31,907 nt of DNA, taken from IMG/VR virus record IMGVR_UViG_3300022925_000101, positions 1 through 31,907 of that record. One strand, written 5' to 3'. Below are positions 4,414-31,907 of this stretch, one piece after another. The notes beneath the pieces are model-generated. The model worked only from the letters and a program-made list of their open reading frames with translations. It did no database searches and was not told the DNA's origin. Within the stretch, counting starts at the first letter, position 1, and the number at the start of each line of letters is the position of its first letter. The translations under genes and the position numbers were made by a program. The DNA is from a virus.

Positions 4414-4414
4414 T

Positions 4415-8087: not shown

Positions 8088-8089
8088 AT

Positions 8090-8650: not shown

Positions 8651-8656
8651 ATAAAA

Positions 8657-8683: not shown

Positions 8684-8698
8684 TTATTGAGGTTAATA

Positions 8699-10681: not shown

Positions 10682-10718
10682 AATTGGTTTCCTCTTTTAC
10701 TTCTTTGTCTAATATAGA

Positions 10719-12823: not shown

Positions 12824-12869
12824 ATTATATCAACTGAATAGAAGAATGTCAAGATTTATTTTTTTGTTT
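12824..12869 (-). promoter_or_regulatory. Full-consensus sigma70-type promoter
   Basis: On the minus strand the -35 box TTGACA (12847-12852) is followed by exactly 17 bases and then TATAAT (12824-12829). A TG one base before the -10 makes it an extended -10. An A-rich run (AAAAAAATAAA, about 12856-12867) lies just upstream of the -35, like an UP element. It is in the only intergenic gap of over 100 bases in the tail cassette and points at the BppU-like gene. It should be read by unmodified host RNA polymerase. Confidence 0.92.
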
Positions 12870-12895
12870 CCTGTTATGTATTGAGATAATAGTAT

Positions 12896-13540: not shown

Positions 13541-14841
13541 TATTTTCCTCCTGTACTCCCGTCAATTTCAATAACACTGTCTGCTACTCCCGTATAGCTT
13601 ACATATATAGTTTTTAATGCCTTTGTCGGAATATGCTCTATGGTAATTTGATATCCAGAGGCAGCTGTCATATCGTGGTTTTGTATTTCGTCAAATCCAT
13701 TTGTAGTAGGGCTCCCGCTTCCTACCCAGGATGAAGTATACGTAAAAGAAGGTGAAGAAGCACTGGATAAAGTTACTTCATAGTTGCTTTCTGTAGAATA
13801 AACTGACCCAGGGCTGCCGACTACTTCAAATTCGTAATATACGCTCTTAATTTTGTCTGTCTCTTGGACATTTGAAGAGTTAAAAGGTTCTGCAATATAC
13901 CTAATCTTTATTCTTCCTACTTCGGTGTCTCCCGCAAATAGAGAGTGTACACTAGTTGTCCAACTTTTATTGGTATTAGCAGCCCCAACTACAAATTCAA
14001 GATTACCTACTGTATTGTTATAGGTATAAGAGTAAACAGAACTCGATCGGGGGTGAGGTAAATTAGTGCTATCTTCTGTAAAATTTACTATATCAACCCC
14101 TACCCACTTAGTTGCGGCTGCATTAATATCAATTACATTTTCTGTTATAGAGTCTCCGAAACCGTCTTGAACTCGAATGGGAGTAGTAAAGGTTAAGTTA
14201 GGTGGACTGGTGCTGCTTGAGCTTATATCAGCTTCGGAGCTATCTTCTATAGCATTGAATGTAGACTCCCAAAAATTATTAGCATTGCTGGCGGTTATAG
14301 TAGGTCTCTCCAAGCTCCAGTTAGCTGTTAATCCTGTAAAAGATACGGTGCTAAAAGTATAGTTAGTTGCGGTTGGCGAAGGCGTAGGCGATGTCGCAGA
14401 AGGAACAGTATAGTATATTAAACCTGTAATACTTTTTAAACCTTGTTCTCCGTCCGCTCCGGGCGATCCGTCCGCTCCGTCCGCTCCTTCTAGGCCTTCT
14501 ACACCATCTCCGCCTGACTTTGATTTTACAGCAGTATATTTTAAATCTATTTCCTTAGTTCCATAAACTGCTTTAGTAGTAAACTGTTCAGAGTCAGAAA
14601 TCCAAGCTCCAGTTGCTGAAACAGAACCTGTATAACTCAAAGGCCCTCCTCCTTCGTCGGTAAAAGAAGCGACATAACTACTAGAAGTAAAATTTGTTAT
14701 TTCAAAAGTAAAGGGGCTAAACTGTGTTGTAAATGGTCTTATTACACAATCTGTAGCAGTTGTTGGGGTAACCGTCGTTCCTGTAGAAGCGGTTACAGTA
14801 ACAGATATTTTATCAAAAGTTTCTACGTTTTGGGTTGGCAT
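13540..14841 (-). CDS. Tail fibre-type protein with collagen-like segment
   Basis: This 433-aa protein begins with Thr/Ser/Val-rich strands that look like an Ig-type domain (about 1-100). A collagen-like stretch of Gly-X-Y triplets follows (about 106-127: GVE GLE GAD GAD GSP GAD GEQ). The rest is beta-rich and Ser/Thr-rich. Collagen-like segments are a familiar trimerisation device in phage fibres, so this is probably a trimeric fibre or fibre connector. It directly follows J, with an AAGGA ribosome site overlapping the J stop region. The last residues (IEIDGSTGGK) end just as the GNAT-like gene begins. No chaperone or peptidase tail is seen, and the receptor is unknown. Confidence 0.7.
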   Translation of the reverse strand: MPTQNVETFDKISVTVTASTGTTVTPTTATDCVIRPFTTQFSPFTFEITNFTSSSYVASFTDEGGGPLSYTGSVSATGAWISDSEQFTTKAVYGTKEIDLKYTAVKSKSGGDGVEGLEGADGADGSPGADGEQGLKSITGLIYYTVPSATSPTPSPTATNYTFSTVSFTGLTANWSLERPTITASNANNFWESTFNAIEDSSEADISSSSTSPPNLTFTTPIRVQDGFGDSITENVIDINAAATKWVGVDIVNFTEDSTNLPHPRSSSVYSYTYNNTVGNLEFVVGAANTNKSWTTSVHSLFAGDTEVGRIKIRYIAEPFNSSNVQETDKIKSVYYEFEVVGSPGSVYSTESNYEVTLSSASSPSFTYTSSWVGSGSPTTNGFDEIQNHDMTAASGYQITIEHIPTKALKTIYVSYTGVADSVIEIDGSTGGK

Positions 14842-17800: not shown

Positions 17801-20551
17801 GTCTTGTTTTATACCCAATATGCGATATTCTTTAAGCTCCTCGGTAGTTGTGTCTTGCTTTCTACCTATAGCCCAAACTACGTCTATAGGGGGTGCCGAA
17901 CTAAAGGCACCTATTACAGTTACTTGGTTTAAAGCACTTAAAGGCCCATTTATGTCTTTTACTTCTACCCTAGTGTTTTTTGAGTAGGTCGTAATTACAG
18001 GATCTCCAGTATCATCTAATAAATTAATAGAGTCTTCTATAGTAGATATAGGGGTTCCACTATTATCCTCTAAAAGAAGTGCTCCTCTTGTATACGATTG
18101 TCCGTTTATATTCGCTGAGTCTTGCGCTAAAAAGATACCTGGTTCGGCATAAATTAGATAAAGAACACAATCGGCAGGATCTCCGCCAGGATACCCAGAC
18201 TCTAATACTCTATCTAAGTTAATAACATTAGTTGTAGATCCTGCAGCAGTTCTTCCGCTAACTTCTATGCCTGAGCTATCTTTGTCTTGTATATTTATTA
18301 TTTCACCGGGAGTTAAGAAAGAGGCATTCATACCTGTACTAAAAGAAACGACGTCCGTTTCATTTAATAATGTAGCCAAATGCCACTTACCAAGCCTTCT
18401 TGCCTGACTTTCCGAAGTACATCCAAAGGCTACCAAATCTTTCTTATTTATTTTGCCCGTAGTAGCAATATTTGCCGTGTCTTCAATGGTAACTATGGTC
18501 TTTTTATAAAACTCTTCTGGATTATTCCAAAGAACATTTACCTGATTAACTCTGGAGCGGCTTCCTGTATAGGTATAATTAAATAGCCCATCTTTTACAT
18601 TTGAAGAATTAAATGTGTAAGACGGCTCTTTTGGTCTGTCCTGCACTGCAGTAATATTACCATCTATCCAATACATCATACCTCGAAAAACGGAACTCAA
18701 ATCCTTTAAAACCTTATACGCTTCTTCTTGTTTTTGAAGATACACATTACAAGAAAATCTAGGTTCTGAATTACCTTTACCATCTGTTACTAATTCGTCG
18801 CAGTATCGGGCAATTTGATATAAAGCATACTTATCCACTTCATCTTCATTTATAAATTCTCCAAGCCCATATTCCTTATTAGTAATAATGTCATAAAATA
18901 CCCAAGCAGGATTATTACAATATACTTTAGGGAAATTAAGGTCTGTAGGCACAAGAGAACTATCACCTCTAAAGCTACCATCCCATGTTTGATAGCTTCC
19001 GGAATCCAAACCAGTGCCCTTAACCCTAGTGTATTGTGCTGAACTACTGCCAAGCTCTTCTCTCGTAAAGTAATTAGTAGGTACTTTTATTTTTTTACCT
19101 CTTAAATGGTACGCTCTTTTAGGAGGAGTTTCAAAATCTTCCGCAGAAAAACTAACCATACCAAGTGCGGTACCGGGGTAAGAAAATTTATCATAAACTA
19201 GGGCTTGGATATTCTTTAATCTAGCCGCCCCGATCCATGTATTATCTTCAGGACAATATTCTCCTAAAGCTTCTGGGCTCAACCTTCGTATTTCTATCTC
19301 CCAATCTTGAAAAGGTTTAAACTTTTCTAGATCAATAAAAAATTCTTTAATAAAACTAGAGTTAGCTGATTTTTTTGTGACTACACCAGTGCTATTTCTA
19401 GGAGAGCCATAAGCATAGTTATTGTGTGCATAGTTGATTAAGGTACTTTCTCCATTTATAACAGCAGTAGGCCAAGAAGGAATAGTATTTGAGAAAGTAG
19501 CTCCACCATAGTCTTTTCCGTAAATTAGCCTACTTTGTTCAGTTAGAGAGCCCCCCACAAGAGTAGTATAATTAATTATAATTTGAAATTCCACATAAGC
19601 ATTTCTCGATTCCCCCTCTCTGCCATTATGCCTTAAACCCCCAGGAAATTCAATAGCAACTTTTATGGCGTCAATTTCAGTTTTCGAGTACTGGCTAAAA
19701 GAAAAGGAGTCTCCTGATATTTTTATAGGAGATTGACTTCCTCCAGCTAGGCTAGAGCGTTGAAGATCATCATTTCGTCCTATAATAACTGAAGCTGAGG
19801 GTGCTCCTGAGCGACCTCGTGTAAAAGAAGTTATGGGAAGTTGATTTCTAGAACCTCTCTGAACTACTGCATAGGTGTCGTCATATGTTATTGAAGGATT
19901 TAAAGATCCGGGAAACTGTACTGCAGGAGAAAGCCTGCAATTAGATAAAACCACGTTCACGGCAACAGCAGATTCCAGAGTGCAAGAATTATTATCAGTA
20001 ATAGAGGCAATTTTTATAACCTCATCCACAGATATTGAAGTACCGCTAGCAACTTCTGTACTTGTTGGAGGGTATAAAGTTGCTTGGGTATCAGATGAAT
20101 TTCCTATAACTATTCCAGCATAATCTCCTCCATCTAGTCCCGCCCCTGGAATTCTTACAATAAATTTTATATAATCAGTAGGGTCTACTTGACCAGTACC
20201 TGTGAAATTTAAAGAATGTTTGTCTAGAAAGAAAGAGCCTGCGGTAGTTATATCGCTACTTCCTTTTACTAGTGTTCCTGAAATTGTTGAGGAAGGACCA
20301 GCACTAAAAATTTGCATATATCGAGGACCGTCATCTAAATTTACATCAGAAAACAGACCATTAGCATCGCTTATCCCCGAACCTATAGCCGTACACTTTC
20401 CCGAGCGCCCCCTTAACTCGTTATATTTAAAATTGCCTACTATAGAGGTTTCGTTTAAAAATACACCAGAGTAGCCTCCAACTAGTCCCTCTATTTCTCC
20501 TACACACAGAAGATCGGTTATATATCCGTATTGTTTTTCTATTGTCGTCAT
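14852..20551 (-). CDS. J: Central tail fibre / host specificity protein, lambda gpJ family
   Basis: This 1899-aa protein is the J-type tip attachment protein. It forms the central tip of the tail, seals the tube and contacts the receptor. The N-terminus (YGYITDLLCVGEIEGLVGG) is the diagnostic J opening. The middle keeps J features such as YDKFSYPGTALGMVSF, NPAWVFYDIITNKEYGLG, and the TASSYYPEKFDEID end of the hub region near 940. After that come a fibronectin-III domain (about 950-1080), a short collagen-like GPQGADGQ element (near 1320), and two tandem Ig-like repeats (about 1530-1755). The variable C-terminal section is the likely receptor-binding end. It is much longer than lambda J (1132 aa). 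It follows I in a TAAAATG junction, in the lambda order K-I-J. Confidence 0.92.
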   Translation of the reverse strand: MTTIEKQYGYITDLLCVGEIEGLVGGYSGVFLNETSIVGNFKYNELRGRSGKCTAIGSGISDANGLFSDVNLDDGPRYMQIFSAGPSSTISGTLVKGSSDITTAGSFFLDKHSLNFTGTGQVDPTDYIKFIVRIPGAGLDGGDYAGIVIGNSSDTQATLYPPTSTEVASGTSISVDEVIKIASITDNNSCTLESAVAVNVVLSNCRLSPAVQFPGSLNPSITYDDTYAVVQRGSRNQLPITSFTRGRSGAPSASVIIGRNDDLQRSSLAGGSQSPIKISGDSFSFSQYSKTEIDAIKVAIEFPGGLRHNGREGESRNAYVEFQIIINYTTLVGGSLTEQSRLIYGKDYGGATFSNTIPSWPTAVINGESTLINYAHNNYAYGSPRNSTGVVTKKSANSSFIKEFFIDLEKFKPFQDWEIEIRRLSPEALGEYCPEDNTWIGAARLKNIQALVYDKFSYPGTALGMVSFSAEDFETPPKRAYHLRGKKIKVPTNYFTREELGSSSAQYTRVKGTGLDSGSYQTWDGSFRGDSSLVPTDLNFPKVYCNNPAWVFYDIITNKEYGLGEFINEDEVDKYALYQIARYCDELVTDGKGNSEPRFSCNVYLQKQEEAYKVLKDLSSVFRGMMYWIDGNITAVQDRPKEPSYTFNSSNVKDGLFNYTYTGSRSRVNQVNVLWNNPEEFYKKTIVTIEDTANIATTGKINKKDLVAFGCTSESQARRLGKWHLATLLNETDVVSFSTGMNASFLTPGEIINIQDKDSSGIEVSGRTAAGSTTNVINLDRVLESGYPGGDPADCVLYLIYAEPGIFLAQDSANINGQSYTRGALLLEDNSGTPISTIEDSINLLDDTGDPVITTYSKNTRVEVKDINGPLSALNQVTVIGAFSSAPPIDVVWAIGRKQDTTTEELKEYRILGIKQDNTSEYSITASSYYPEKFDEIDVDPPVYTTDYIPTSGRLDSVPGPASISVEMIPEARSSDKANPTGQRVIISWDTPEESYKDSLGVTTLIPYRFLSSFEVQHNFEEVAGLSTFKTEKVPGTSTSISISGVSEGFYTVRVRTVNDLGIKSPWTIVRRFVSLSSAGNARINSIAVGGVLSGDSFRLISTTGKVLLSSVPFSYTSPSGEIFSYSTIPAGSPDNAFLIEADFSPMGNDETAYLYFDASGAEEATPNPWREVQIYTDGVVRDSNGNLLNRPYIVPVGYTGTGLGTTTGVIDTSSGSNTLVGTGTLFTSEYAVGDLLKTSSNPDADIETQEAEYRVIASIESDTLLTVTTPFLKNLVSGYTFVQDFKPDVSRDAILAKIETDNTGVYSAQFYINGLGPQGADGQNIGIVVTDASIVYDGEGLNPSYEPSTSDPSAIGIETRTSTTSSPEYKYTLNGSSVTFPEFTTNPFYNYTVPTTWTQGADIVRVQVRRAGSTVIELEDSISIVRVKQGSGNLAGVLTNPTHTVNTDAGGRTFESNFPNGSGQWELFFSGDDVTNIGTYSVVGGTSAAGKSSKTQNGLTFQVDESTGEYTLLQLDAPTKYNLAATVGGSSQSNSVTPSATLLEEGDSVSFSVSGAASSTVYLQFVYLTANGTDFTSTPPSSSSREAIVLDGAGAGTSLTYTTAIDFDTANEVFYAEIYSSASGGSLLATSNNITIQKQTYNFSVSSTSLNNNDTLTIHIETNNTNVSTLYLSFDNPSAGLGTGDFTNPNVGSVAPISARQAITLSSQQFDYTIDVFPDNDAAETFVPAIYGASSGGSPLSSLPTVTLVDTSLSGATAQWAGSTSFAASSDSENGGKQAASISLYFYRDGDAEVVYFGDFLTGSIDVDDWLPVSDRTSTIGDQYEIKWDKISGVVSANFAEDTWVPLNLTRVISGPTVVAYEEEPELLTGVVNVQIRKLSAGSPDFSVNITLQAAVAI
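15296..15950 (-). repeat. Two tandem Ig-like repeats in J
   Basis: Two protein repeats of about 105 aa sit in the C-terminal part of J. Shared landmarks are a leading strand with ATLLEEGDS / TSLNNNDT, then STVYLQF / STLYLSF, DFT near the centre, SREAI / ARQAI, and FYAEIYSSASGGSLL / FVPAIYGASSGGSPL near the end. They are diverged at the DNA level, so they are old repeats rather than a recent slip. Confidence 0.75.
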
Positions 20552-20552: not shown

Positions 20553-21287
20553 TTAATATCCTACAGTGGTAATGGTGAATATTTCGTCACTCAAATCTGA
20601 TAGCTCATTTTGAAAAAGGAAATCTCTTACAGAAGCATCGCTAGCAATTTGTACAGAAGGACCTTCTCCGCCTGAAAAGTTAATTGGCATGTTTCCGGTT
20701 TCTGAAGTTCCTGCAGCATTGGAAGATACAGTACTTCCTCTTAAAACTACGGGATTTTCTGAATAGTAAGCGGATATTGCTCCCCCGCCTATTATAAGTT
20801 GTCCATAGAGAACCGGTATGGGGAGTCCTTGAGAAATATTGTTTACCGGACCATTAAACAAATAAGAAGGGTCGTTCTGACTATCCTCCGTTTCAGGCCC
20901 TGGAGCTAATAGTTCCGCCACTCCTCCTACAATAAGACTTATGCCTACATCTATAAGAAAGGCTAGCGGCTGATAAAGTACCCCCACAATAATTAAGATA
21001 ATTCCCGCAACAATTTTTAACCCCGCCTTTGCTCCGCCAGGAACTTCAGTTATAATTATCTCTTCTTCCTCTACAGTACTTAGTAGTAGGTCTTCTGGAT
21101 TTTGTAAAATATCTTTCCCTTTCTTTATTTCATAGGCAACTCCCGCTTCCTCTGCTTCTAAAAGATATTTTTTGAATCCCAAAGTCTGGCAAGATATTAA
21201 TTTAAAAATATCTCGAATGTTTGCGCAATCCGTTTGCCAGACTTCTCCAAACTTAGCTATGTCTCCTACTAAGCGAACTGTTTGCAT
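20553..21287 (-). CDS. I: Tail tip assembly protein, lambda gpI family
   Basis: This 244-aa protein is the I-type tail tip protein needed to build the J-containing tail tip. It has an N-terminal ubiquitin-like region and an acidic loop (VEEEEIIITE, 72-81). A long hydrophobic segment follows (about 86-128: GLKIVAGIILIIVGV ... LIDVGISLIVGG), typical of this family. After it comes the conserved SQGLPIPVLYGQLIIGGGAISA block. The segment could insert in a membrane during DNA delivery or pack inside the tip. The start overlaps the end of K by 19 bases and has GAGG nine bases upstream. J follows after a TAAAATG junction. Family assignment rests on these motifs and on the strict K-I-J order. Confidence 0.88.
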   Translation of the reverse strand: MQTVRLVGDIAKFGEVWQTDCANIRDIFKLISCQTLGFKKYLLEAEEAGVAYEIKKGKDILQNPEDLLLSTVEEEEIIITEVPGGAKAGLKIVAGIILIIVGVLYQPLAFLIDVGISLIVGGVAELLAPGPETEDSQNDPSYLFNGPVNNISQGLPIPVLYGQLIIGGGAISAYYSENPVVLRGSTVSSNAAGTSETGNMPINFSGGEGPSVQIASDASVRDFLFQNELSDLSDEIFTITTVGY

Positions 21288-21973
21288 CTTATATACCTCG
21301 TTATATGTTTTGACCAGCCAGAGTAAATAGATTCTCTGCAGGATAGTCTGTTTTCTGCGTGATGTAAGAATAAACCTTCTCCCAAATATACCCCGCAGTG
21401 GTTGGGTATGTTTGAGAGTACACTAAAAATTATCATATCGTGCTCTTGTGGAGTTTCTACCTCGTACCAACCAAAAGCCTCGTATAGATCGTCAAAATAA
21501 TTTAATCCTTTGTTCCACCAGTTATCTTCAAAATTTATTGCAGAAAGCTCTATATTTAGCTTTTCTCTATAGTAATCTCGCACTAAAGAGTAACAATCGT
21601 TAGTTCCGAAATCATAAGTCCTGCCTAGCAAAGGATTACTTTTCTTTATTGGGTTGTGTGTAAATTTCTGTATTTCTGGCAAAGTAAAAACAATATAAGG
21701 AACTCCCAAAAAATTGCTGCTAGCTATATCGTTCTCGCTGGGGCCTTTGTCACTATCTGGGTGGCTGTGTACTATAGCGTATATATCTCCCTGTAGAGTT
21801 GCTTTTATATAGTCTTCCGCAGGAATTTTAAAATTGTTAAGTTTATCTTCTGCTTCATTTTTGCAAGGAATCCAAACTACTTTTCCTCTTTTATTTAGTA
21901 GTATACCGCAACCTTCTTCAGGATAACAGTCCAACAAATGTTCTACTATATCTCTATCTTCTTTGTTGTACAC
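21269..21973 (-). CDS. K: Tail tip peptidase, JAMM + NlpC/P60 domains, lambda gpK family
   Basis: This 234-aa protein is the K-type tail tip assembly protein, thought to cut peptidoglycan and/or process tip components. The N-terminal JAMM/MPN domain is complete, with E19/E20 and the zinc motif H69-S-H71-P with S79 and D82 at the canonical spacing. The C-terminal NlpC/P60 cysteine-peptidase domain has C127 (GTNDCYS), H192 (NHCGVYLG) and a following HH pair (204-205) in the usual LHH context. Both active sites look intact. A GTG start at 21973 is chosen because a perfect GGAGGA lies seven bases upstream. The gene overlaps L by 20 bases and I by 19. The L-K-I order matches lambda. Confidence 0.95.
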   Translation of the reverse strand: MYNKEDRDIVEHLLDCYPEEGCGILLNKRGKVVWIPCKNEAEDKLNNFKIPAEDYIKATLQGDIYAIVHSHPDSDKGPSENDIASSNFLGVPYIVFTLPEIQKFTHNPIKKSNPLLGRTYDFGTNDCYSLVRDYYREKLNIELSAINFEDNWWNKGLNYFDDLYEAFGWYEVETPQEHDMIIFSVLSNIPNHCGVYLGEGLFLHHAENRLSCRESIYSGWSKHITRYIRCKQFA

Positions 21974-23153
21974 CTGGAAATCCTCCGAACCGTAAATGGT
22001 TTGTTTTATTTAAGTTTGAATCAGGTATACCAGAACCTCCAGGCAATTCTAATGCATTATATCTAAGAGTACAAGAGTTTATTTTCTTTCCGCAAACATC
22101 TCCCAAAGTCCAGTATCTTCCTTCTTTTAAATTGTCGTTAACAGAAGTATCTACAGTAATTAATTTCACCTTAAATAGATCTCCTAAAAGTTTTTTTACA
22201 TAGTCATTGTACCCAGACTGTTTATATCCGTAATATGTAGTGCCCGCACTATAAATACTGTATAGTCTTATTCTTCTCCAATTACCTCTGTCGCTATCTG
22301 AAGGAGTTCCTGTACCGGTCGTAATTGCTTGCCAATAATTTGTAACAGTTACCGGAGAAGTAGAAAGTCCGTCTGCACTGTATCTGTCAGCGGTGCTCGT
22401 AGTGGTATATAATGAATTTTTAGTAGAGGAGCCAGACCAAGCAGAAAATTGTCCAAGATTGGTGTCTGATATTACATACTCATCTAAATCATTTATAAAT
22501 AAAACTGAAGAACTACTTGGAGATTGAAATGTAGAGTCCCAATCACAACCACCTAGCCTTGCTTGAGGGGGGACTAGTTGTTGTGCTCCTTTATATTTGA
22601 AAGGACAAGCTCCTCCTATTACAACTCTTCTGGGAATCGTAACTCCTTGCAAGTCAAAAGGTGCTGCTAGTTCAAAGGTTATATTTACTATATTTTTTTC
22701 TTTAACTCTATCTATATAATAAACTGTTCTAGGATATTCTACGGGTGCTAAACCTGGCCCAACATCTCCTGAACCTCCTACAAGGTATTTTTCTAGGGTG
22801 GTTCTCTTAGTAAGTTTAGTTCCGATTAATTCTTCAGGCTTTAAACCCCCTATAGAGTCTGACAAAACGGAGCCTATATTAGCTATAGTCAGGGTAGGTC
22901 TAGAAATTGCCCCGTCATTGCTCGTATCAAAGCCCTCTGCTTCAATAGGAATACCTACGTACTCTATTTCAGCTCCCACCACAAATTCTTGCCTCCACTC
23001 TCTGAATCTAATATTTTCTAAAGTAGTACCATCAAATTCCGCTCTTCCGGAATAAAAATAGGCGAAAGATCCTGTAGAATATTCTAACTCATATAAAGTT
23101 ATTAGAGAAGAGCCAGGATCTTGAAGTTGTGTTGTTCTTATTATATCTGTCAT
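21954..23153 (-). CDS. L: Minor tail protein, lambda gpL family (Fe-S cysteines)
   Basis: This 399-aa protein is the L-type minor tail protein, which forms part of the tail hub between the M ring and I/J. The N-terminus (TTQLQDPGSSLITLYELEY) and the early CDWD-type region fit the family. Four cysteines at C183, C203, C354 and C361 are positioned like the ligands of the [4Fe-4S] cluster described for lambda gpL, with the last pair seven residues apart. Lambda gpL is about 232 aa. The extra length lies mostly in an insertion between C203 and C354 that contains a YWQAITTGTGTPSD block resembling a small carbohydrate-binding module. The start overlaps the M-B stop as ATGA, so M and L are coupled. 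Confidence 0.92.
   Translation of the reverse strand: MTDIIRTTQLQDPGSSLITLYELEYSTGSFAYFYSGRAEFDGTTLENIRFREWRQEFVVGAEIEYVGIPIEAEGFDTSNDGAISRPTLTIANIGSVLSDSIGGLKPEELIGTKLTKRTTLEKYLVGGSGDVGPGLAPVEYPRTVYYIDRVKEKNIVNITFELAAPFDLQGVTIPRRVVIGGACPFKYKGAQQLVPPQARLGGCDWDSTFQSPSSSSVLFINDLDEYVISDTNLGQFSAWSGSSTKNSLYTTTSTADRYSADGLSTSPVTVTNYWQAITTGTGTPSDSDRGNWRRIRLYSIYSAGTTYYGYKQSGYNDYVKKLLGDLFKVKLITVDTSVNDNLKEGRYWTLGDVCGKKINSCTLRYNALELPGGSGIPDSNLNKTNHLRFGGFPGVQQRR
21981..21986 (-). promoter_or_regulatory. Consensus Shine-Dalgarno deciding the GTG start of K
   Basis: GGAGGA on the minus strand lies seven bases before the GTG at 21973, inside the last codons of L. It is a near-perfect ribosome site, supports the GTG as the true start, and implies strong independent initiation of the peptidase. 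Confidence 0.85.
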
Positions 23154-23545
23154 GTTACCACTCCATTAAACGTAGGTATGTTTATTTTTCTAAGATTGGC
23201 TGTACAACTATAACCGTTTTCCTCTGTAACGAAAGATTGACTAAAATCTATGCAAACTACTTGTATAGTTTCTTCTCCTCCCGAAGAAGAGGGAAGTGTT
23301 AAGGAAAACGAAGTAGTCCCTTCCCTTTCTTGGAAAAACGAAGTTAAAGTATCTATAGTTTCTTTGGTTCTGTTTTTAAAAGTTACAGTTAAAAGATCTT
23401 GAACAGGATTTATTCCGGCTCTACCCCTTTGTTCAAAGGAACCTACTTTAAACTGTCTAGCCTCAAGCTTAGTTTGTCTCCCGACATTTCTGTCGGGATT
23501 TATAAAGGTTGGGGGACTTGTTTCTAAATCTATACCTAAAGTCAT
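23150..23545 (-). CDS. M: Minor tail protein, lambda gpM family (module B)
   Basis: This 131-aa protein is a gpM/distal-tail-type protein, expected to form the ring at the end of the tail tube on which L, I and J assemble. Visible family features are an early PDRNVG segment, the DLLTVTFKNRTKETIDTL strand-helix, an FSLTLP strand and a final IQVVCIDFSQSF...YSCTANLRKI strand pair. The ATG at 23545 (MTLGIDLE) is chosen because it lies four bases after the stop of the large B gene, has AGG seven bases upstream, and aligns with the MTVGFEDL start of its paralog at 29664. The longer frame from 23608 would overlap the upstream gene. It is coupled to L by ATGA. Confidence 0.82.
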   Translation of the reverse strand: MTLGIDLETSPPTFINPDRNVGRQTKLEARQFKVGSFEQRGRAGINPVQDLLTVTFKNRTKETIDTLTSFFQEREGTTSFSLTLPSSSGGEETIQVVCIDFSQSFVTEENGYSCTANLRKINIPTFNGVVT

Positions 23546-23549
23546 GCTA

Positions 23550-26500
23550 TTACCTATATGCGCAAGGAATAGAGACAGTGATTGTCTTGCCGGCGTCAGC
23601 TGCGGCACACCTAATCAACCCTTGTCTTGGGAAAACTGAAACTTCTCCGGCAGAGAGTGTTCCATTGTCTTCAATCCCCGTTACTGTAGCCTCTACCCCA
23701 TCTATCTTTATACTAAAAGCTTCTCTAAACGCCATTTGCATATACAAGAAATTGGAATTAAAAGATGCATTTCCAGACCCGCTAGTACCTACTCTTACCC
23801 AGTAATCGTTAGCTGCCGACTTCTTAAAAATGTTGGCCGTACCTAATCCATACTCAGTGTGCCCATTAGCGCCTTGTTGGGTTTTAGAAATTACCTCATG
23901 TAGCTGTGCAGGAATTAGACTTTCACTACTTGAAGCGGCAGAGGTATATATTAATTGGTCCCTCAGGTAGTAAGTTATAGTGGTGCCAACTCTTTTTATT
24001 GTGAAAGGACATCTTCTAGCGTTCACAGGATCTGACATACCATATCTTGCGTCGTTCGCGATCGCGTTCCAGCTCGAGTTCCAAGTGTCCACAGTATTTA
24101 AAGCATCTACTCGACTGCTAAGCGACGTATCCCATGTATGAGTATTAAAAATACTATACCAAAACTCTGTATCTGTATGAGTGTAAACTACGCTTCCTGA
24201 CTCAATGACTTCAATTATTAAGTTGTACACAGTTGGACCAGCTCCAGTAGTATCCGTTACTGGGAGGTAAAAATCGGATTTATTTACCTCATTTTGCCAG
24301 TTGTAATTTGGAGCTGCTGATGTACTATTAAGACTAGCAGAAGTGACTGCAGGGCCGCCAAATCTAATCCTAAACCCGTAATCAAAATCATTTATGCTAT
24401 ATGGGTTACTTATTGGAGAAGTGTCGCTGAAAGAAGCTGAATTAACTACTCCCACATAAGCGTTCGCCTCTAGCAAACCACTTACGTCTGTATAAACTAT
24501 AATATCGTTAACTTGTGTAGTACTTCTCCAATCAAAGTTAAGATGTTTTAATAGCTGAAACTCTACTTCAAAGTCTCCAGCAGCAGCTAAAGTTGTTTTC
24601 TTTCTAATTGCATTTCTGAATTGTCCCGGTGTGCTTTCACTACCATTCCAAGTACTATTAGTGGCCCCATTAGTGGTCCCGCCATACCACAGACTACAAG
24701 GATAGAATTTAGTAGAATACCTGTGCCCCCTTCTAAGTCTGGTGAATGTAGTTTGATTGTTAACAACTTGTGCACCCCAAATATTATAGCTGTCTTCCTC
24801 ATAATATTCTGGATTTGAAGTATTAAGTATTGGTGAAGGGTCTGTAGTACCCTCGTATTCTCCAACAGAGTCATAATAAATCTCTGGAATTAAATCCGAG
24901 GGGGTATTCAGAGCAATAGTGGCTCCCGTAACTTCCGTAACTCTTTCACTGTCCCAGTATGATATATCAGGTGCATGTAAGTTACAATTAGTTCCTGCAT
25001 CATTTAACAATCCTCTATACACGTGAAAAGAAATAGCTTCTCCCGACTCAAAGCTTTGAGTAGCTCCCGCATCATCAAAAGAAATAGTCGCGCCACCAAT
25101 GAGAGCATCTGTACTAGAATGTGTCGTTTTGACGGTTAAAGCATCATTATCGTCCTGCCTTAATATCCAAGAAGATCCGTTCCATTTGTATCTTTGCCAA
25201 ATGTCTCCGACTAATTTCTTCGCAGGATCTATACCCAAGAAAGTTGTTCCGTCACTCATTGCTCCTGCGAAAGAGTTCATAACAACCAAACCTCTACCAA
25301 TATATCTATTATAATAAGTGCCGCTGCTTATGCCCCCGTCTGTACCAGTTCCAAAAGCTCCTAACAGTGTGACTCTACTTCCATTGAACTCAAACATATG
25401 GATATTATTATTTCGTCCGTTTGATTGAACTAAGCACTCATGTCCATCGTCATTTCGATCTAGAATATGTGTGTACATCCAGGCACTATTTACGTTGTAT
25501 GTGTCTGAAAAATTACCGGTGCCGATTCCGATACCATTACCTTCGTATTGATAAGCATACTGCGAAGAATCATTTACCCATTTCTCATCAAAAGTATCTC
25601 CAACAGTGAACTCAGAATAATTAGCTGGAGAACCTCCAATCTGCTGCTCCCAAAATATCTCTAACGGTGCTGTATTGTAAGTACCTGAAAGACCAAGACG
25701 GTCTAAATAAAACTGACTAAAATACCAGTTGGACTCTCTTGGAGTACAGCCAATAAGGTGTTGAGAGTATCTACGTACGGGAGCATAGTTTCCATCAGCA
25801 AGCCATTGTGCTCTTAGCCCGTTGTTTCCGCTAGTTCGAAAAAACCATCCAATATCCTTAGTTGCATTGCTCGAGCCCCCATAAAGTATAGGAAGATCTC
25901 CGGAAGTAGTTAGTACGTTTGTAGCTCCTGTAGTGGGAGACCACCACTCTCCTTTATATTTTCCATAGTAAACATTGCCGGCTAATTGGCCTGGAGAATT
26001 ACTATTAGGACTTGGATCAAATAAATACAGAAGTCTGTTTGCATTATTTCTATCTGCTTTTATAACATGAGCAGCGCTCCAAGTTGCTTCAATTGTAGCG
26101 TTTACAAAAGTTGTTCCTCCGGTAGAGGTACTATCATAACCTGTCCAAGTTGCTCCATTATCGGTAGACTTAACTAAAGCGCCTTCCATAAATGCCCAAA
26201 TAACTCTGTAACTGTTTGCGCCTGATTGAGTGCCAACAGTTATAGCATAGCACTTATTCTGGACTGTGGCAGAAACATCAGTAACGGTAGATAAATCATA
26301 GCTTGTAAAAGTCGGTGTGCCAAAAGGATCTTGAATACTGTATATACCTGTTCCATAGCAAGAGAGCCAAAGAGTATCACTTAATTCATCATATTCTACT
26401 TGTCCTAGTGCTGTCGGAGCAAAAGTGGGGTCATAAAAACTTCCGTAAGCAATAGAATAAGGTTTGTCTGCTTTAATGAAAGTAATGGTGGTATTGTCAT

Positions 26501-27956
26501 AAGTAAAGAGCTTAGAGGGATCGCTAAAATCCATACTATGAAGTTGAGAGTTTTGAACTGCGTTTCCGTTTTCTGCATACTCACCCCTGATCCTCTCCGG
26601 ATTGGGCTCCGTCATAGTAGAAAATTCCGTAGTGACGGTACTGACATGACTGGTCAAAGTACCTGTAATAATTGGCTCAAATCTTGGAACTAAAGTATTA
26701 TTTGTCCAACCCAGAGTGTATCTTTTCATAAAAGAATATTCTGGAACTCCAACATTTCCTGTAGTTCCGGAAATATCTACTTTCCACTGTTCTGGAAAAG
26801 TTGTATTATAAGAAGAAGTATCTACAACTATTGTTCCATCTGTATTTGGTACTTCTCCGGCGTCAAAAAAGGGAACAGTTGCGTTGCTAATTTTTCCAAA
26901 ATATTGTTGAGTTTTATCTGCCCCAGGGGGGAGAATCGGACCCCAATTATGAATAGGATAACTTGAGCCTGAAGCTTCCTCGGTTGTAGAATTGGTTCTG
27001 TGCCAAGAGCCTCGAAAAGCTCCTACATCGGTATCAGTACTCTTCATCTTATAACTACCATGCCAAATCCCGTCCCAGCCTACCCAATTTACGTCTGATT
27101 CATTTTTCCAAGCAGAGATGCTACCGTTCAAATAAACTGCTTCCGAATTAGGTTTTCCAGCAACATACAATGAATTTGGAATTCTTCCCCTGTCGGGGTT
27201 ACCCCAAAAAGAGTATCTTCCCTTACCCCCTAGAATTTCATAGTATAGCCCTGTAGTAAAATCGTTATACGCGCCTACCCTTCCAGAAAATGTAGTTGAA
27301 TTTCTTCCCACTAAATTATGTGCAAAATGTATATAATTATTTAAAGATTTTGTAGAGCTTGTAGAATATGGAAACTGTAATCTGTATAGAATGACAACAA
27401 CTTCTGTAGTATCCTGAGTTACGGCAGATGCGAAAGAAACACCAGTTAAAGGAACCTGCTGTCCTGTCCAAAATTGGGAACCGGACTGGGAACCGGAAAC
27501 GCCGTAGGCATTTAAACCAAAAGTATGAAGAGTTCGGGTGCCTGTAGTTGGGGGCAGAAGTTGCTGGGTCATTTTAAGTTCAGTAGTTGCTGTTGCTCCC
27601 CCATCTCCCTGTAGAATCATGTGCGGAGTTCCAGCTATGCTCTGTGGCAGATACATAGTTCCTGGCAAACTATTGCAGGAAGGAGAAAAGTTTGCAACAT
27701 AAGTATCTGTAGCATATAAATAAAATAGCCCTCCTCTGTCTCGGTCTTGCGAACTGTACATTAAATCTTCTGGGTCGTCGTTTAGCTCGTCATTCGCAGG
27801 ATTAGTTGCCGACTGACCTGTGACGTAGGCTCCCGGCTGGTAGTTGGTAAAAAAAGAATCAAAAACTAAATTCTCTTTCCAGCCAGACTCAAAAGTAGTT
27901 TCGTCTGTATCTACTTTTTTCTTAATTATATTTACTAGTCCTTTTACATTATTCAT
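23550..27956 (-). CDS. Large beta-rich tail appendage protein (module B), propeller and lectin-like regions
   Basis: This 1468-aa protein looks like an exposed tail appendage, not a tape measure: it is rich in Gly, Ser, Thr, Asn, Tyr and Trp and lacks long helices. An Asp-box/BNR motif (KSTDNGATWTG, near 590) and repeated aromatic strands suggest a beta-propeller in the first half. The second half (from about 725) is a clear paralog of the protein encoded at 29666-31907. It shares GCTP/GCTK, PLEIFWEQQ, RYKWNGSSW, QDDND and STDALIGGATISFDDA. Next is a lectin-like region with CPFTIKRVGTTITYY and LIYTSAASSSESLIP. It ends with a conserved terminal domain (AAADAGKTI...PCAYR). It starts after a TAAAATG junction and is followed by M-B. 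A host-surface glycan-binding role is inferred. Confidence 0.7.
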   Translation of the reverse strand: MNNVKGLVNIIKKKVDTDETTFESGWKENLVFDSFFTNYQPGAYVTGQSATNPANDELNDDPEDLMYSSQDRDRGGLFYLYATDTYVANFSPSCNSLPGTMYLPQSIAGTPHMILQGDGGATATTELKMTQQLLPPTTGTRTLHTFGLNAYGVSGSQSGSQFWTGQQVPLTGVSFASAVTQDTTEVVVILYRLQFPYSTSSTKSLNNYIHFAHNLVGRNSTTFSGRVGAYNDFTTGLYYEILGGKGRYSFWGNPDRGRIPNSLYVAGKPNSEAVYLNGSISAWKNESDVNWVGWDGIWHGSYKMKSTDTDVGAFRGSWHRTNSTTEEASGSSYPIHNWGPILPPGADKTQQYFGKISNATVPFFDAGEVPNTDGTIVVDTSSYNTTFPEQWKVDISGTTGNVGVPEYSFMKRYTLGWTNNTLVPRFEPIITGTLTSHVSTVTTEFSTMTEPNPERIRGEYAENGNAVQNSQLHSMDFSDPSKLFTYDNTTITFIKADKPYSIAYGSFYDPTFAPTALGQVEYDELSDTLWLSCYGTGIYSIQDPFGTPTFTSYDLSTVTDVSATVQNKCYAITVGTQSGANSYRVIWAFMEGALVKSTDNGATWTGYDSTSTGGTTFVNATIEATWSAAHVIKADRNNANRLLYLFDPSPNSNSPGQLAGNVYYGKYKGEWWSPTTGATNVLTTSGDLPILYGGSSNATKDIGWFFRTSGNNGLRAQWLADGNYAPVRRYSQHLIGCTPRESNWYFSQFYLDRLGLSGTYNTAPLEIFWEQQIGGSPANYSEFTVGDTFDEKWVNDSSQYAYQYEGNGIGIGTGNFSDTYNVNSAWMYTHILDRNDDGHECLVQSNGRNNNIHMFEFNGSRVTLLGAFGTGTDGGISSGTYYNRYIGRGLVVMNSFAGAMSDGTTFLGIDPAKKLVGDIWQRYKWNGSSWILRQDDNDALTVKTTHSSTDALIGGATISFDDAGATQSFESGEAISFHVYRGLLNDAGTNCNLHAPDISYWDSERVTEVTGATIALNTPSDLIPEIYYDSVGEYEGTTDPSPILNTSNPEYYEEDSYNIWGAQVVNNQTTFTRLRRGHRYSTKFYPCSLWYGGTTNGATNSTWNGSESTPGQFRNAIRKKTTLAAAGDFEVEFQLLKHLNFDWRSTTQVNDIIVYTDVSGLLEANAYVGVVNSASFSDTSPISNPYSINDFDYGFRIRFGGPAVTSASLNSTSAAPNYNWQNEVNKSDFYLPVTDTTGAGPTVYNLIIEVIESGSVVYTHTDTEFWYSIFNTHTWDTSLSSRVDALNTVDTWNSSWNAIANDARYGMSDPVNARRCPFTIKRVGTTITYYLRDQLIYTSAASSSESLIPAQLHEVISKTQQGANGHTEYGLGTANIFKKSAANDYWVRVGTSGSGNASFNSNFLYMQMAFREAFSIKIDGVEATVTGIEDNGTLSAGEVSVFPRQGLIRCAAADAGKTITVSIPCAYR

Positions 27957-27957
27957 T

Positions 27958-29664
27958 TTATATCCTTGTAATTTCTATGATGGAAGTAGAGGAAAAATTC
28001 CCCTGATCTACGGGATCTGCTGTATCTGTCGCGGAATAAGTGCTGCGAGCAATATTATCTGTTAAATTTGTGTCTATAAACTCTAACTCTAATGCCACCG
28101 ACTCAGTAGCTCTCAGAACCTTGTTGTCGGAACGGCTTACTTCTATAGCTTGTGTATTTATAAAATCAGAATCTATTGTTATAGAGTCTATTATATCCTT
28201 AGAAATATATCTATATCTTGCTATAGAAGTATTTTTTGTCGCTATAAAATCTAAAGAGCTTAGATCAACACTATCGGAAGCAGTTCTTTGTATGAAACCT
28301 GTAGTTTCTACAATTAAATCTACTGTGTCTAAAATTTGTCCTGTGAATCCTGTCTTTCTTAAGTTTAGAGTGTAAAACTCTACTAATTCTGGAGAAGGAA
28401 CCTGCTTTGTTATAACAAAACTTCCCTCAGAAAAATTATCGTCTCCAGTAGGCAGAAAACTCCCCTGCACTTGATCAAAATCTACTCCTTGAACAGCTCC
28501 TTCAATAGTCCAGTAAATTTGTTCTATAGGAAATAAGGTTCCTTTAAAAAAGACAGTAGTTTCGTAAACTGGGCTGGAGTTTGGTCCGACAGATACTGAG
28601 TCTATTACAGCTCCCTGCTCATCTACTGCTTGTGCGCCTGCAAAAGGAAGAGTAAATAACGTTATAGTATCTACTATAGCTCCGCTAATACTGTCCTTTC
28701 TGAGCCTTAAAGTATTTGTTAAATCTACATTAGTAGAGGGAGCAGTAATAGAAAAACTTCCAGAACTAGAAGCAAAGTCTCCGGTAAGAGAAATAGTGCC
28801 GGTACTGGTAGAATAATCACTGCCGCTAATTTCATAATATATGTCTTCGGGCTCAAAATTTTGTACACTTACATAAACTGTATCAGTGTCTTGTTGAAGT
28901 ATGTAGAAAGCTCCTATTAGAGTGTCTTGAGCATCAACAAAATTAAAAGTTTCTGGTCCTCTAGAGGTATCTATTATAGTAACAATTACTTGGGCTAAAA
29001 CTGTTCCGGAAATAGACGCTTCTCTTACTGAAAGAGTAAAAGTTTCGGGACCTTCAGTAGCTAAATCAGCCAAAGTCCCTATATCAAAAGAGCCTTGAGA
29101 AAGGGAGGTAGTTCCAGACATGTTAAAAGAGCCGTTTAAGGCTTGAAAGTCAGCTAAAGAAGCTCCGTCTAGACTCCAATAAAGAAGTTCAGGACCTCTT
29201 TCTAAACTACTAACATTTACTGTTTTTACTTCTCCTTCGTTTATATTGAAGTTTCCTGAAGATACAGTAACGGAGGAAGTTCCGGAAACTAACTCGTATA
29301 CTCTCACAAATTTGGCGGTGATAGACCCTATTACATCATTTAAATAAGTTACTGTATAGCTGTCACAATACACTACTACTATTTTTTCGCCTGAAGGCTC
29401 GTTACTGTCCGGCACAGTAAAATCAAAAGTTTTGTATTTTCCCCTATTATCAAAAAAGCCCGAAATAGCTCTTATTTCCTCTATAGGTCTGTTTGTAAAA
29501 GTAATAGAATAAGTTTCTTCTCTAGCATCTGTACCTATAGATACGCGGTTTTCGTATCCATCACCAAAAGTGGTGAGGGAATAAATCGGCTTTATATTTT
29601 TCGTAACTCCGCCCCTATCAGGAACCCGAAAAGTAAATGCTAAATCTTCAAATCCTACTGTCAT
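27958..29664 (-). CDS. gpM-family tail protein fused to Ig/Calx-beta-like repeats (module A)
   Basis: This 568-aa protein starts with a second gpM-family domain (about 1-126). Landmarks are FGDGYENRVSIG, EETYSITFTNRPIEEIRAI, a FFDNRG turn, and KIVVVYCDSYTVTY...ITAKFVRVYE, parallel to M-B. Three repeats of roughly 95-110 aa follow (about 127-455), each with an LYWSLDGAS/IYYEISGSD/IYWTIEGAV strand and an FTLSVRE/LRLRKD/LNLRKT strand ending in SISGTVL-like sequence. They resemble Calx-beta or Ig-like modules. The last 110 residues are rich in Ser, Asp and Ile. The ATG at 29664 is chosen because it is one base after the upstream stop and aligns with the M-B start. The GTG at 29688 would overlap the upstream gene. 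It is probably a decorated distal tail ring protein. Confidence 0.78.
   Translation of the reverse strand: MTVGFEDLAFTFRVPDRGGVTKNIKPIYSLTTFGDGYENRVSIGTDAREETYSITFTNRPIEEIRAISGFFDNRGKYKTFDFTVPDSNEPSGEKIVVVYCDSYTVTYLNDVIGSITAKFVRVYELVSGTSSVTVSSGNFNINEGEVKTVNVSSLERGPELLYWSLDGASLADFQALNGSFNMSGTTSLSQGSFDIGTLADLATEGPETFTLSVREASISGTVLAQVIVTIIDTSRGPETFNFVDAQDTLIGAFYILQQDTDTVYVSVQNFEPEDIYYEISGSDYSTSTGTISLTGDFASSSGSFSITAPSTNVDLTNTLRLRKDSISGAIVDTITLFTLPFAGAQAVDEQGAVIDSVSVGPNSSPVYETTVFFKGTLFPIEQIYWTIEGAVQGVDFDQVQGSFLPTGDDNFSEGSFVITKQVPSPELVEFYTLNLRKTGFTGQILDTVDLIVETTGFIQRTASDSVDLSSLDFIATKNTSIARYRYISKDIIDSITIDSDFINTQAIEVSRSDNKVLRATESVALELEFIDTNLTDNIARSTYSATDTADPVDQGNFSSTSIIEITRI
28300..29285 (-). repeat. 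Three tandem Ig/Calx-beta-like repeats in the M-A protein
   Basis: Three diverged protein repeats of about 95-110 aa follow the gpM domain. Each has a GxEtF/YWxxxG strand, a DF...G(S/T)(F/I)...GSF(D/S/V)I middle and a (F/L)(T/R)LxxR(E/K)xxxxG end. The arrangement suggests a stalk projecting from the distal tail. Confidence 0.7.
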
Positions 29665-29665
29665 T

Positions 29666-31907
29666 TTAGGTAGCGTCGTAATAAGCACATGGCATAGAAA
29701 TTGCTATGGTCTTTCCTGCGTCTGCGGCGGCGAATCTTAAATATCCTTCTTGTGGGTAAATAGAAACTTCTCCTGCAGCGAGAGTAGCTGCATTATCAAA
29801 CCCAACAACATTTGCCTCAGTACCATCAATTGTAATACTATAGGTTTGTCTGTACGCGGCTTGAAGATGGCTAAAATCTGTTCGATAGGCTCCGGTTGCA
29901 GGGCTTGCCTCTCCTACTTTTAGCCAATAATCGTTTGTTGCTGCTTTTTTAAAGCTATGGTATGTTCCGGAATTTTGCGTCCAAAAAGTGTTGTTATTGG
30001 TATTGGTGCCTATCGCATTATTATACTTTGTTGTGCAAGGAATAAGACTCTCTGAGCTAGTAGCCGCGGAAGTATGAACTAATAGTCCTCGAATATAGTA
30101 TTTAACTGTAGTTCCTGTTCTTTCAATAGTAAACGGGCAGAAAGAATATTTTGGAAACAGGGCCATGCTAAGCTCAGGTCGCGATCCAGATGCTACATTT
30201 GATGTTGGACCGCGAAATCCTGTCTGTAAATTTCCATCATAGTAAGATCCTGGATTAAGGAATTCGTCATCTACATTTAAAAATATTTGCGTCTGGGGTT
30301 GCGTTGTAGAGTACACCACGGATCCCCCTTCTATAACTTCTATCAAAACTGGCGTGCCATTTCGGATGGAAGTAAAATTTTCACTCTCGTTATTTGTTGC
30401 AACGTCATTCGGATATTCGAGATAATTATTGATACTCAGGGAGGAGCTTGTCTGTTGAACCCCTCCTGAAGAAGCGTAGGGGTGGTTTTCTGTAGGATTT
30501 TCCACAATACTTAATCTAAAGCCATAGTTTATATCTGAAAAAGAGTCTACATTTGTATTATTTTCTTCGGGACTAATAGAGTCCGAATATAAAGTTGCAT
30601 CTGTCAAACCCCAAGCTATTTGTCTCTCGACCCCTACTGTAGGAGGAGAGTTCCAGGTGTCCTGAAGATTTAGTATAGGATAGTCATACCAATTAGTACT
30701 ATCTAGGTCGCCAAAAGGTTGAGTAGTAAGAGAAGTATCCCCGGAGGCTGCGGAGGAAATTTTCAATCGAGTAGATACAAAATAAGTATTAGCGGTCGAA
30801 CTAGTGTTGCCATCCTGCCTTCCTGTAAAATGCCAGAAAGGAGTTCCACGATCAGTGCGCTGTATGTTGCCACGAAACGTAGTATCCACTAAAGCCCCCG
30901 ACAACAGAGTTCTTGTAATAACACCCGTATCCGTATTAAAAGATCGTGTATCAAGGCCACTAGACGATGTCACAAGACCACTGTTTACTCCTTGGCTGTC
31001 ATTCAAGAAAAAAGGAATTAATTCTGAAGGAGTGCTTAATCCTAAGGTAGTACTAAAAGAAACTGATTCGCTTGGATAATAAGAGACTGTGGGAGAAAAA
31101 GACTCAAAAGAAGTTGCTGCATCATTTTGTATACCATCACAAACAGCTACCGATATTAACTCTCCGGCTGTATAATTTTGAGTTCCCGATGCGTCGTCAA
31201 AAGAAATTGTAGCCCCTCCAATTAAAGCATCGGTGCTCAAATGAGTACTTTTTACCCCGAGAGGATCGTTGTCGTCTTGTCTTTTTACCCAAGAAGAGCC
31301 ATTCCATTTATATCTGTCCCAAACCTCTCCTATGAGTTGTGCAGAGGGATCCCAGCCGTAAAAAGAAGTTCCTACAGATTGTAACCGTTGGTTACTGTCG
31401 ATCCATAAGCCCCTTCCTAAATAATAATTTAATACATTTGAATTACTTTGCAGTAGAGTAAGCGAGTGGTCTGAAAAATCTAGCTTATAAAAACCAAAGA
31501 TAGCATCTGTATCATTGTAATAAGGAGCCCAAATTAAGCAGTCATTTCCATCATCATCCGTAGTTTCATAAAAAAAGAAACCTTGTTGAGTGGCTCCGGA
31601 ACTAGTTCCCTCTAAAACACCGTTTGTGTATATTCTATTTGCCAACCCAAAATCTCTTATATTAGGGGGGGTGTTTGTGCGACTATCATAACCAAAACTT
31701 GTAGAATTAGACCAAGTTAAAGGAAACTTACTATACCCAGGAGATCCGGTATCAATCTGAGTCTCAAAAAATATTTCAAGAGGAGTCATTCCATCTCTCT
31801 GATCTACATTACCTTCTAATTCTCTAACTTGCCAGCAGTTTGATAACCACCACTTTGATTGTGTTTTAGTACATCCAAATCTTTTTTTAATTCTTTTTCG
31901 TATTAGA
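29666..31907 (-). CDS. Large beta-rich tail appendage protein (module A), N-terminus outside window
   Basis: This is the C-terminal 747 residues of a large appendage protein paralogous to the one encoded at 23550-27956. The frame is open past the ATG at 31789 to the window edge. The upstream residues (RFGCTKTQSKWWLSNCW) align with the GCTPRESNWYFSQF region of module B, so the ATG at 31789 is internal and the gene is cut by the window. Shared landmarks are PLEIFFETQ, RYKWNGSSW, QDDNDPLGVKSTH, STDALIGGATISFDDA, the lectin-like CPFTIERTGTTVKYY and LVHTSAATSSESLIP, and the end domain AAADAGKTIAISMPCAYY. The stop is one base before the M-A start. A glycan- or receptor-binding role is inferred from composition and context. 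Confidence 0.72.
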   Translation of the reverse strand, partial: LIRKRIKKRFGCTKTQSKWWLSNCWQVRELEGNVDQRDGMTPLEIFFETQIDTGSPGYSKFPLTWSNSTSFGYDSRTNTPPNIRDFGLANRIYTNGVLEGTSSGATQQGFFFYETTDDDGNDCLIWAPYYNDTDAIFGFYKLDFSDHSLTLLQSNSNVLNYYLGRGLWIDSNQRLQSVGTSFYGWDPSAQLIGEVWDRYKWNGSSWVKRQDDNDPLGVKSTHLSTDALIGGATISFDDASGTQNYTAGELISVAVCDGIQNDAATSFESFSPTVSYYPSESVSFSTTLGLSTPSELIPFFLNDSQGVNSGLVTSSSGLDTRSFNTDTGVITRTLLSGALVDTTFRGNIQRTDRGTPFWHFTGRQDGNTSSTANTYFVSTRLKISSAASGDTSLTTQPFGDLDSTNWYDYPILNLQDTWNSPPTVGVERQIAWGLTDATLYSDSISPEENNTNVDSFSDINYGFRLSIVENPTENHPYASSGGVQQTSSSLSINNYLEYPNDVATNNESENFTSIRNGTPVLIEVIEGGSVVYSTTQPQTQIFLNVDDEFLNPGSYYDGNLQTGFRGPTSNVASGSRPELSMALFPKYSFCPFTIERTGTTVKYYIRGLLVHTSAATSSESLIPCTTKYNNAIGTNTNNNTFWTQNSGTYHSFKKAATNDYWLKVGEASPATGAYRTDFSHLQAAYRQTYSITIDGTEANVVGFDNAATLAAGEVSIYPQEGYLRFAAADAGKTIAISMPCAYYDAT

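Follow-up and report, generated by a model that had tools for sequence, protein, structure and literature searches.

Gene organization of the distal tail locus

The IMG/VR virus record IMGVR_UViG_3300022925_000101 was analysed over its complete length of 31,907 bases (hereafter, the window). Its minus strand carries a lambda-type tail tip locus in the order large protein A (LgA, cut by the window end), M1, large protein B (LgB), M2, L, K, I, and J, where M1 and M2 are gpM-type proteins. Comparison with related contigs makes it rather probable that this tip contains three gpM-type proteins. Two of them, M1 and a further protein M0, would carry C-terminal arms that dock the swappable adhesins LgB and LgA, respectively; M2 would be an ordinary gpM. 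The features of the locus are as follows; lengths are given in amino acids (aa).

29666..31906, minus strand: LgA, C-terminal 746 aa; open frame running off the window end, paralogue of LgB
27958..29664, minus strand: M1 (earlier named M-A), gpM-type ring domain plus extension, 568 aa from the ATG; PF05939, E 9.5e-13
29299..29664, minus strand: gpM (distal ring) domain of M1; PF05939 match at residues 25-131 in the numbering of the GTG-started frame
28303..29298, minus strand: beta-sandwich domains D1-D3 of M1, D1-D2 being Calx-beta-like in the AlphaFold2 (AF2) model; domain borders follow our reading of the alignment
27961..28302, minus strand: variable tail of M1, proposed docking arm for LgB; 21-24% identity to the M1 tail of relative L004, versus 96-99% elsewhere in M1
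23550..27956, minus strand: LgB, 1468 aa, proposed adhesin docked on M1; 41% identity to the L004 LgB, with flanks 98% identical in DNA
23763..28295, minus strand: segment exchanged relative to L003/L004, comprising the M1 tail and LgB minus its last ~70 aa; from blastn breaks and sliding identity
23150..23545, minus strand: M2 (earlier named M-B), bare gpM protein, 131 aa, at the lambda M position before L; PF05939, E 4.5e-8, below cut-off; M2 clade 100/100
21954..23153, minus strand: L (hub) protein; PF05100, E 7.3e-23
21269..21973, minus strand: K-type NlpC/P60 plus JAB protein; PF00877, E 1e-12, and PF14464, E 3.6e-11
20553..21287, minus strand: I-type tail assembly protein; phrog_32, E 1.5e-39
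14852..20551, minus strand: J-type central fibre protein, 1899 aa; tblastn to annotated phage tail and tail fibre proteins

The genes of the module are 1-4 bases apart or overlapping in the window, and at most 9 bases apart in the relatives. As an earlier sequence-only reading of the window had stated, each M start closely follows the stop of a large gene: the M1 ATG is 1 base past the LgA stop, and the M2 ATG is 4 bases past the LgB stop. The LgB start is 1 base past the M1 stop. By gene borders, no gene lies between an M and its following large gene; homologues of the T5 collar protein p132 were not searched for.

Three gpM-type proteins

The similarity between LgA and LgB extends upstream of the ATG that one would pick for LgA, which was the first sign that LgA is cut. 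The near relatives L003 and L004, 98% identical to the window in DNA outside one segment, reach further upstream. Their gene order is tape measure protein (TMP), M0 (583 aa), LgA (1458 aa), M1 (579 aa), LgB (1452 aa), M2 (131 aa), L, K, I, and J, and the LgA part in the window is 96.5% identical to residues 713-1458 of the L004 LgA. M0 of L004 shares one base with the end of TMP, M2 overlaps the start of L, and M1 lies between the two. M0 is presumably present in the window's own phage too, because the 98% identity holds up to the window end, which falls before M0.

The M1 protein scores 48.9 bits against PF05939 (E 9.5e-13; cut-off 39), and M0 of the near relatives 43.4 bits (E 5e-11). M2 in the window reaches 33.9 bits (E 4.5e-8), under the cut-off, and aligns to M1 at E 2e-9. 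Orthologues of M2 lie on both sides of this cut-off: G003, G004, G006, and G007 above it (53.9, 53.9, 46.6, and 44.8 bits), and G001, G002, G005, and G009 below it (33-34 bits). Among solved structures, the M profiles matched lambda gpM (8iyk_M) at E 7.6e-6 (A2 profile) and 1.8e-5 (A3). The gpM homology that had been claimed for both M-A and M-B was thus recovered by profile search. M0 and M1 are alike over their full length (39%, E 6e-116). Both consist of a gpM domain followed by an extension of ~450 aa (beta domains and arm), which would lie outside the ring; M2 is bare. The arms of M0 and M1 also contain near-identical internal repeats (93-96% in DNA), spaced 192, 87, and 198 bases (L004:7404-7511/7596-7703; L004:13602-13655/13689-13742; L008:3427-3555/3625-3753).

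The sequence-only reading had described a tandem duplication of a two-gene module, a large protein followed by an M protein. The two large genes and the two extended M proteins agree with a duplication. However, the relatives have three gpM-type genes; with M0 before LgA, the repeat unit is M-large, present twice and closed by a bare M, rather than large-M.

Exchange junctions and pairing of M and large proteins

When the window was compared with L003/L004, the blastn alignment broke at 28295 and 23763. The sliding DNA identity to L004 is 95-100% outside this segment and 50-66% inside; the bin that spans the right junction has 85%. From LgA through M1 to ~28295 the DNA is 96-100% identical; this break indicates that the ring and beta domains of M1 go with the backbone, and the M1 tail with LgB. 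The synonymous divergence (dS) is at most 0.036 in LgA, the M1 core, M2, L, K, and I. LgB is 32-52% identical by segment (last part 84%), and the M1 tail 24%. The L004 M1 tail is 58% like that of the distant L007, versus 21% like that of the near-identical window; the L004 LgB is, by segment, 59-93% identical to L007 versus 16-83% to the window.

Similar junctions were found between L008 and L012, whose backbones are near synonymous saturation (L dS 1.67). In the M0 unit, dS is 1.68 in M0 residues 1-180, 0.019 in residues 233-454, 0.033 in the tail, and 0.061 in LgA. In the M1 unit, it is 1.36 in M1 residues 1-232, 0.18 in residues 233-454, 0.033 in the tail, and 0.19-0.29 in LgB (end 0.033). 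The shared stretches begin at D2 of M0 and at D2 of M1, and the M1 ring domain and D1 between them are diverged. Judged from dS, two cassettes were transferred separately, and in neither case did the ring domain move along.

In 3/3 DNA-level exchanges, M is cut at the left junction past its gpM domain, and what follows in M moves along with the next large gene. The arms themselves are 11-21% identical in 42/45 M pairs (the pairwise table leaves out L003, L009, and L011). On the best reading of these junctions, an M is paired with its downstream large gene: M1 is tied to LgB, and M0 to LgA. This differs from the pairing proposed earlier, M-A with large A and M-B with large B, since M-A (M1) goes with large B, large A goes with M0, and M-B (M2) is bare.

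Phylogenetic distribution

A total of 92 loci were annotated, of which 37 (30 contigs) have TMP and L both in view; 7 of these are repeat views of the same contigs. The M-Lg-M-Lg-M order was found in 13/37 loci (6 contigs, 4 lineages), and a single bare M of 111-125 aa in 24/37 (24 contigs); no one-unit intermediate occurs among the 37. Across 25 records, three PF05939 copies were present in 6, two in the partial L007, one in the fragments L011 and L020, and one in each of 16 outgroups. A further 18/18 loci, mostly on short contigs, have a single M.

The M-domain tree, from which the near-identical L003 and L009 were left out, supports M0+M1 (100/100), M2 (100/100), M0 (85/89), and M1 without L010 (90/93). 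In the Lg tree, which leaves out the partial LgA of the window, LgA and LgB form separate groups (99/97 and 88/95), and the L010 LgB falls outside both. The L010 M1 and LgB were kept despite their long branches. The grouping of M0+M1, M2, and M0 suggests that the two slots predate the divergence of these lineages. The outgroups have a single bare M before L. The simplest reading therefore takes M2 as the ancestral, lambda-like M, with insertion of the two M-Lg units between TMP and M2 predating the split of the clade. An old duplication with both copies kept, as claimed before, is supported by the M and Lg trees and by this distribution.

Homologues outside these contigs were few. Genome scans revealed no relative, either with the Lg alignment (49 pattern matches) or with that of M (19 pattern matches); such scans see only carriers of the chosen short patterns. 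When 50,697 phage records were searched by tblastn, M1 gave gpM-domain matches only (6 records), and so did the first 251 residues of the L008 M0 (38 records, 38 places, E <= 1). In a small sample of 14 phage records, hand-picked among search hits, 13 have a PF05939 match, 12 of them a single one, and XacN1 has none. Pseudomonas phage ZQG1 has one PF05939 match and a weak second (15.7 bits) ~45 kb away, in a 618-aa frame.

Features of the large proteins

In the window, LgA and LgB share 34% identity over 795 columns (BLASTP, E 3e-99), which span all of LgA in view; the full-length proteins of L003/L004 share 31% (E 2e-153). This bears out the paralogy read earlier from the window, including its quoted conserved blocks. 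The wide divergence of the DNA was also as described, with three short matches of 70-78%. A block of 122 bases (RYVW...ISFDD) is 95% identical between the LgA (3787-8259) and LgB (9995-14464) of L012; the corresponding identity is 83% for L008 and 73-74% for the window and L004. The L012 block fits a recent conversion between the two genes.

Neither LgA nor LgB has a Pfam match at E <= 1 or a match among solved structures. For LgA, weak PHROG matches of unknown function were obtained (E 0.19 and 0.3 for the window LgA; E 0.0054 for the L008 LgA). The glycan-binding role assigned to the two appendages before therefore found no backing in these searches. The window LgB has no tblastn match at E <= 0.01 among the phage records, and the C-terminal part of LgA has a single weak one, a hypothetical protein of the Xanthomonas jumbo phage XacN1 (AP018399.1 255134-258442, L136; 33%, E 9e-8), encoded three genes away from a sheath stabilizer gene.

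Among the large proteins, a recognisable domain, FG-GAP repeats, is present only in the divergent L010 LgB and its partial copy in L024. The L010 protein (L010:15929-21508) is longer, 1859 aa, and contains four FG-GAP_2 repeats (E 1e-24); the L024 copy (L024:1-5253) has 1750 aa in view. This long form indicates that domains within the large proteins also change. Part of the L010 LgB matches structural proteins of cyanophages, e.g., S-TIM5.

Predicted structure of M1 and rates of amino-acid change

In the AF2 model of M1, residues ~141-460 form beta domains with a pLDDT of 71-92 in ten-residue blocks. Residues 138-346 match the tandem Calx-beta domains CBD12 (3rb7_G) with a Z-score of 10.6 over 183 residues (rmsd 8.7). 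The top Foldseek matches of M1 are assorted large beta-rich proteins with low TM-scores, and in a second look the Calx-beta tandem stood slightly above the rest. For residues 136-348, Calx-beta tandem domains head the matches; galectins were not in this list, which excludes nothing.

The ratio of nonsynonymous to synonymous change (omega) in LgA is 0.86 between the window and L004 (C-terminal half) and 1.05 between L008 and L012. For comparison, it is 0.20 and 0.06 in L, and 0.24 in J (window/L020). Between L008 and L012, the M0 and M1 tails reach 1.27 and 1.03, versus 0.09 in M1 residues 1-232 (gpM side). The LgA genes of this pair differ by 211 nonsynonymous and 59 synonymous changes, where ~3.4 to 1 would be neutral by site counts; clusters of differences (nonsynonymous/synonymous) lie at residues 661-720 (25/5), 1081-1140 (21/4), and 181-300 (45/11). 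Overall, the amino-acid change of LgA is near neutral. Diversity-generating mutagenesis was considered for LgA and rejected, as the L008/L012 base changes are spread over all twelve types; a reverse transcriptase was not searched for.

Other genes of the window

Downstream of J, a collagen-like gene of 433 aa (13540-14841, minus strand) has a dS of 0.20 relative to L020, where J has only 0.027. It is probably a fibre gene, and by this dS it seems to have been exchanged. The minus-strand genes beyond it (4696-12766) include a virion structural protein (5298-8087, phrog_1645), a gene that weakly matches a major tail protein (8699-10681, E 8.7e-4), and several genes that lack a family match. On the opposite strand (422-4413, plus), a RusA-like resolvase, an exonuclease, and both ribonucleotide reductase subunits are encoded.

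Proposed organization of the tail tip and alternatives

In the proposed organization, M2 would be the ordinary gpM ring that joins the tube to the gpL/gpJ hub. M0 and M1 would be extra distal ring proteins, each made of a ring domain, three Calx-beta-like beta-sandwich domains, and a variable C-terminal arm. Each arm may dock the giant protein encoded just downstream (M0-LgA and M1-LgB), and one tail would thus carry two different adhesins. The ring domains would belong to the phage backbone, while arm and adhesin might form a plug-in cassette that is swapped among related phages by homologous recombination, with the left junction inside the M gene. Gene order in lambda tails follows the position along the tail; on this basis, M0, M1, and M2 would be stacked from tube to hub. 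We infer that rings form, in which order they stack, that docking is physical, that the large proteins act as adhesins, and that both occur on one virion. A tip with distal layers that bear two sets of adhesins is a plausible candidate arrangement. The full form, three stacked gpM-type rings of which the upper two bear arms for their own giant adhesins, either receptor system being independently replaceable through exchange of arm and adhesin while the chassis stays fixed, is possible but held with somewhat less than even confidence.

Several observations weigh against this organization, which was built from sequence comparison and single-chain models. Modelled by itself, the M1 arm (464-576) remains unfolded (pLDDT mostly 22-28), and a docking fold is therefore not visible. 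The gpM domain of the M1 model is uneven (blocks of 42-82) and fold-search matches are confined to residues 136-463; the ring fold is thus read from sequence. The LgB model (residues 269-1468) has a mean pLDDT of 38.6, unusable for fold search, and LgA and LgB match no known family convincingly. The LgB omega between L008 and L012 is just 0.53-0.62 (end 0.31), and the M1 core and I also reach 0.51 and 0.56 between the window and L004; moreover, the LgA omega near 1 could reflect relaxed constraint as well as selection. The complete lineages number four, all uncultured contigs. In L010, M1 and LgB are long-branched, and this M1 is not firmly grouped with the others. A candidate fourth, older exchange, of M0 D3 plus LgA on the stem of L008/L012, was excluded from the three because its support is mixed: the alternative clade is rejected by LgA (5e-49) but not by D3 (p-AU 0.0996), and gpM+D1 points the opposite way (p-AU 0.027).

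The joint exchange of arm and LgB could also be hitchhiking. The M arm would then vary with LgB since the M body is the nearest upstream homology, and LgB would attach elsewhere, e.g., to the tube or the hub. This alternative is rather unlikely. The low identity of the arms makes junctions inside them mechanically improbable, and the observed junctions do fall in conserved domains, as hitchhiking would have it. On the other hand, within an otherwise conserved ring protein the arm changes fastest, and it follows its own large gene across the lineages that were compared. Neither the M/Lg gene border nor the Lg start, which is moderately conserved, contained a junction, a weak point with three events. 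Hitchhiking would yield the same exchange pattern, so the pattern supports docking without proving it.

Another arrangement, judged unlikely, places M0, M1, and M2 in one mixed ring, or makes M0 and M1 interchangeable, so that a virion would have one adhesin set or a random mix. A mixed ring would suit the common ring domain of all three M proteins and the single gpM hexamer of lambda (PMC10721106). However, M0 and M1 stay orthologous groups (L010 M1 apart) and LgA and LgB keep their slots except for the L010 LgB, which fits fixed positions; the tightly spaced genes also give no sign of alternative expression. That the large proteins are structural sheaths, or capsule-degrading or other surface enzymes round the tail tip, instead of receptor binders, appears quite improbable. 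In its favour, the searches of LgA and LgB revealed no binding domain, and the FG-GAP propeller repeats of the L010 LgB are also known from proteins without receptor binding. Against this, no enzyme family was matched, and the large genes show allele exchange and a high nonsynonymous share (as in the L008/L012 LgA), both of which are usual for receptor-binding proteins. Arms of M0 and M1 that dock two adhesins thus stay the preferred interpretation.

Comparison with known tail tips

In lambda, a gpM hexamer links the tube to the gpL/gpJ hub (PMC10721106). The lambda tail tip (PDB 8iyk; PMC10721106) shares with the present locus the gpM-family domain, its site between TMP and L, and the L-K-I-J order. 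However, lambda has one bare gpM of 109 aa in one hexamer, whereas here two of three gpM-type genes have giant partners and are extended by ~450 aa. In Alishewanella phage LSH1, which infects a Gram-negative host, gp24 is a gpM homologue that bears an additional decoration domain (PMC13243795). That is one gene with an N-terminal galectin-like decoration, whereas the two genes here have C-terminal Calx-beta-like domains and a variable arm, next to a bare third gpM.

The distal tail proteins (Dits) of Gram-positive phages that carry receptor-binding proteins (RBPs), the 'evolved Dits', likewise use a distal ring protein as a platform (PMC7291167). In p2, the arm or extension of Dit anchors the RBP N-terminus (PMC7291167). 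M0 and M1 share this p2-type layout of a ring domain plus extension; for a similar anchoring by their extensions, the observation available is genetic co-exchange. The description there is of one Dit with a galectin-fold second domain, whereas the lambda-type tail here has gpM-type genes in tandem, whose products bear Calx-beta-like domains and a C-terminal arm. For the baseplate of lactococcal phage 1358, a second Dit hexamer appears in a figure legend, where distinct paralogues are not mentioned (PMC7291167).

The side fibres of T5 are anchored by a collar protein together with an additional tube-fold ring (PMC10038345). The T5/DT57C p140 ring with the p132/LtfC collar (PMC10038345, PMC10713586) resembles the present locus in having a duplicated extra ring near Dit and in side-fibre attachment. 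However, p140 derives from the tube protein and the fibres sit on a separate collar, whereas the duplicates here are gpM-type with arms of their own, twice.

Ring-mounted adhesins, extra tail-tip rings, and a gpM homologue with one decoration domain are thus each known already, as far as the sources cited extend. The present module is a variation on ring-mounted adhesins and no new category. The arrangement as a whole is not described in the excerpted open-licence PMC literature on tandem distal tail proteins, stacked or extra rings, gpM duplication, Calx-beta tails, and module exchange, a search that was poor for tandem Dits.

In summary, the distal ring protein of this lambda-type tail seems to have gained extra copies that became a socket for adhesins. 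Judging by the natural exchanges, evolution cuts past the ring domain and within the mount. The T5 authors expect another way of attachment in lambdoid phages (PMC10038345), and the locus yields a concrete hypothesis for how adhesins may be attached in lambda-type phages, other than by the T5 collar. It also yields a hypothesis for how one phage might keep two independently replaceable host-recognition parts.

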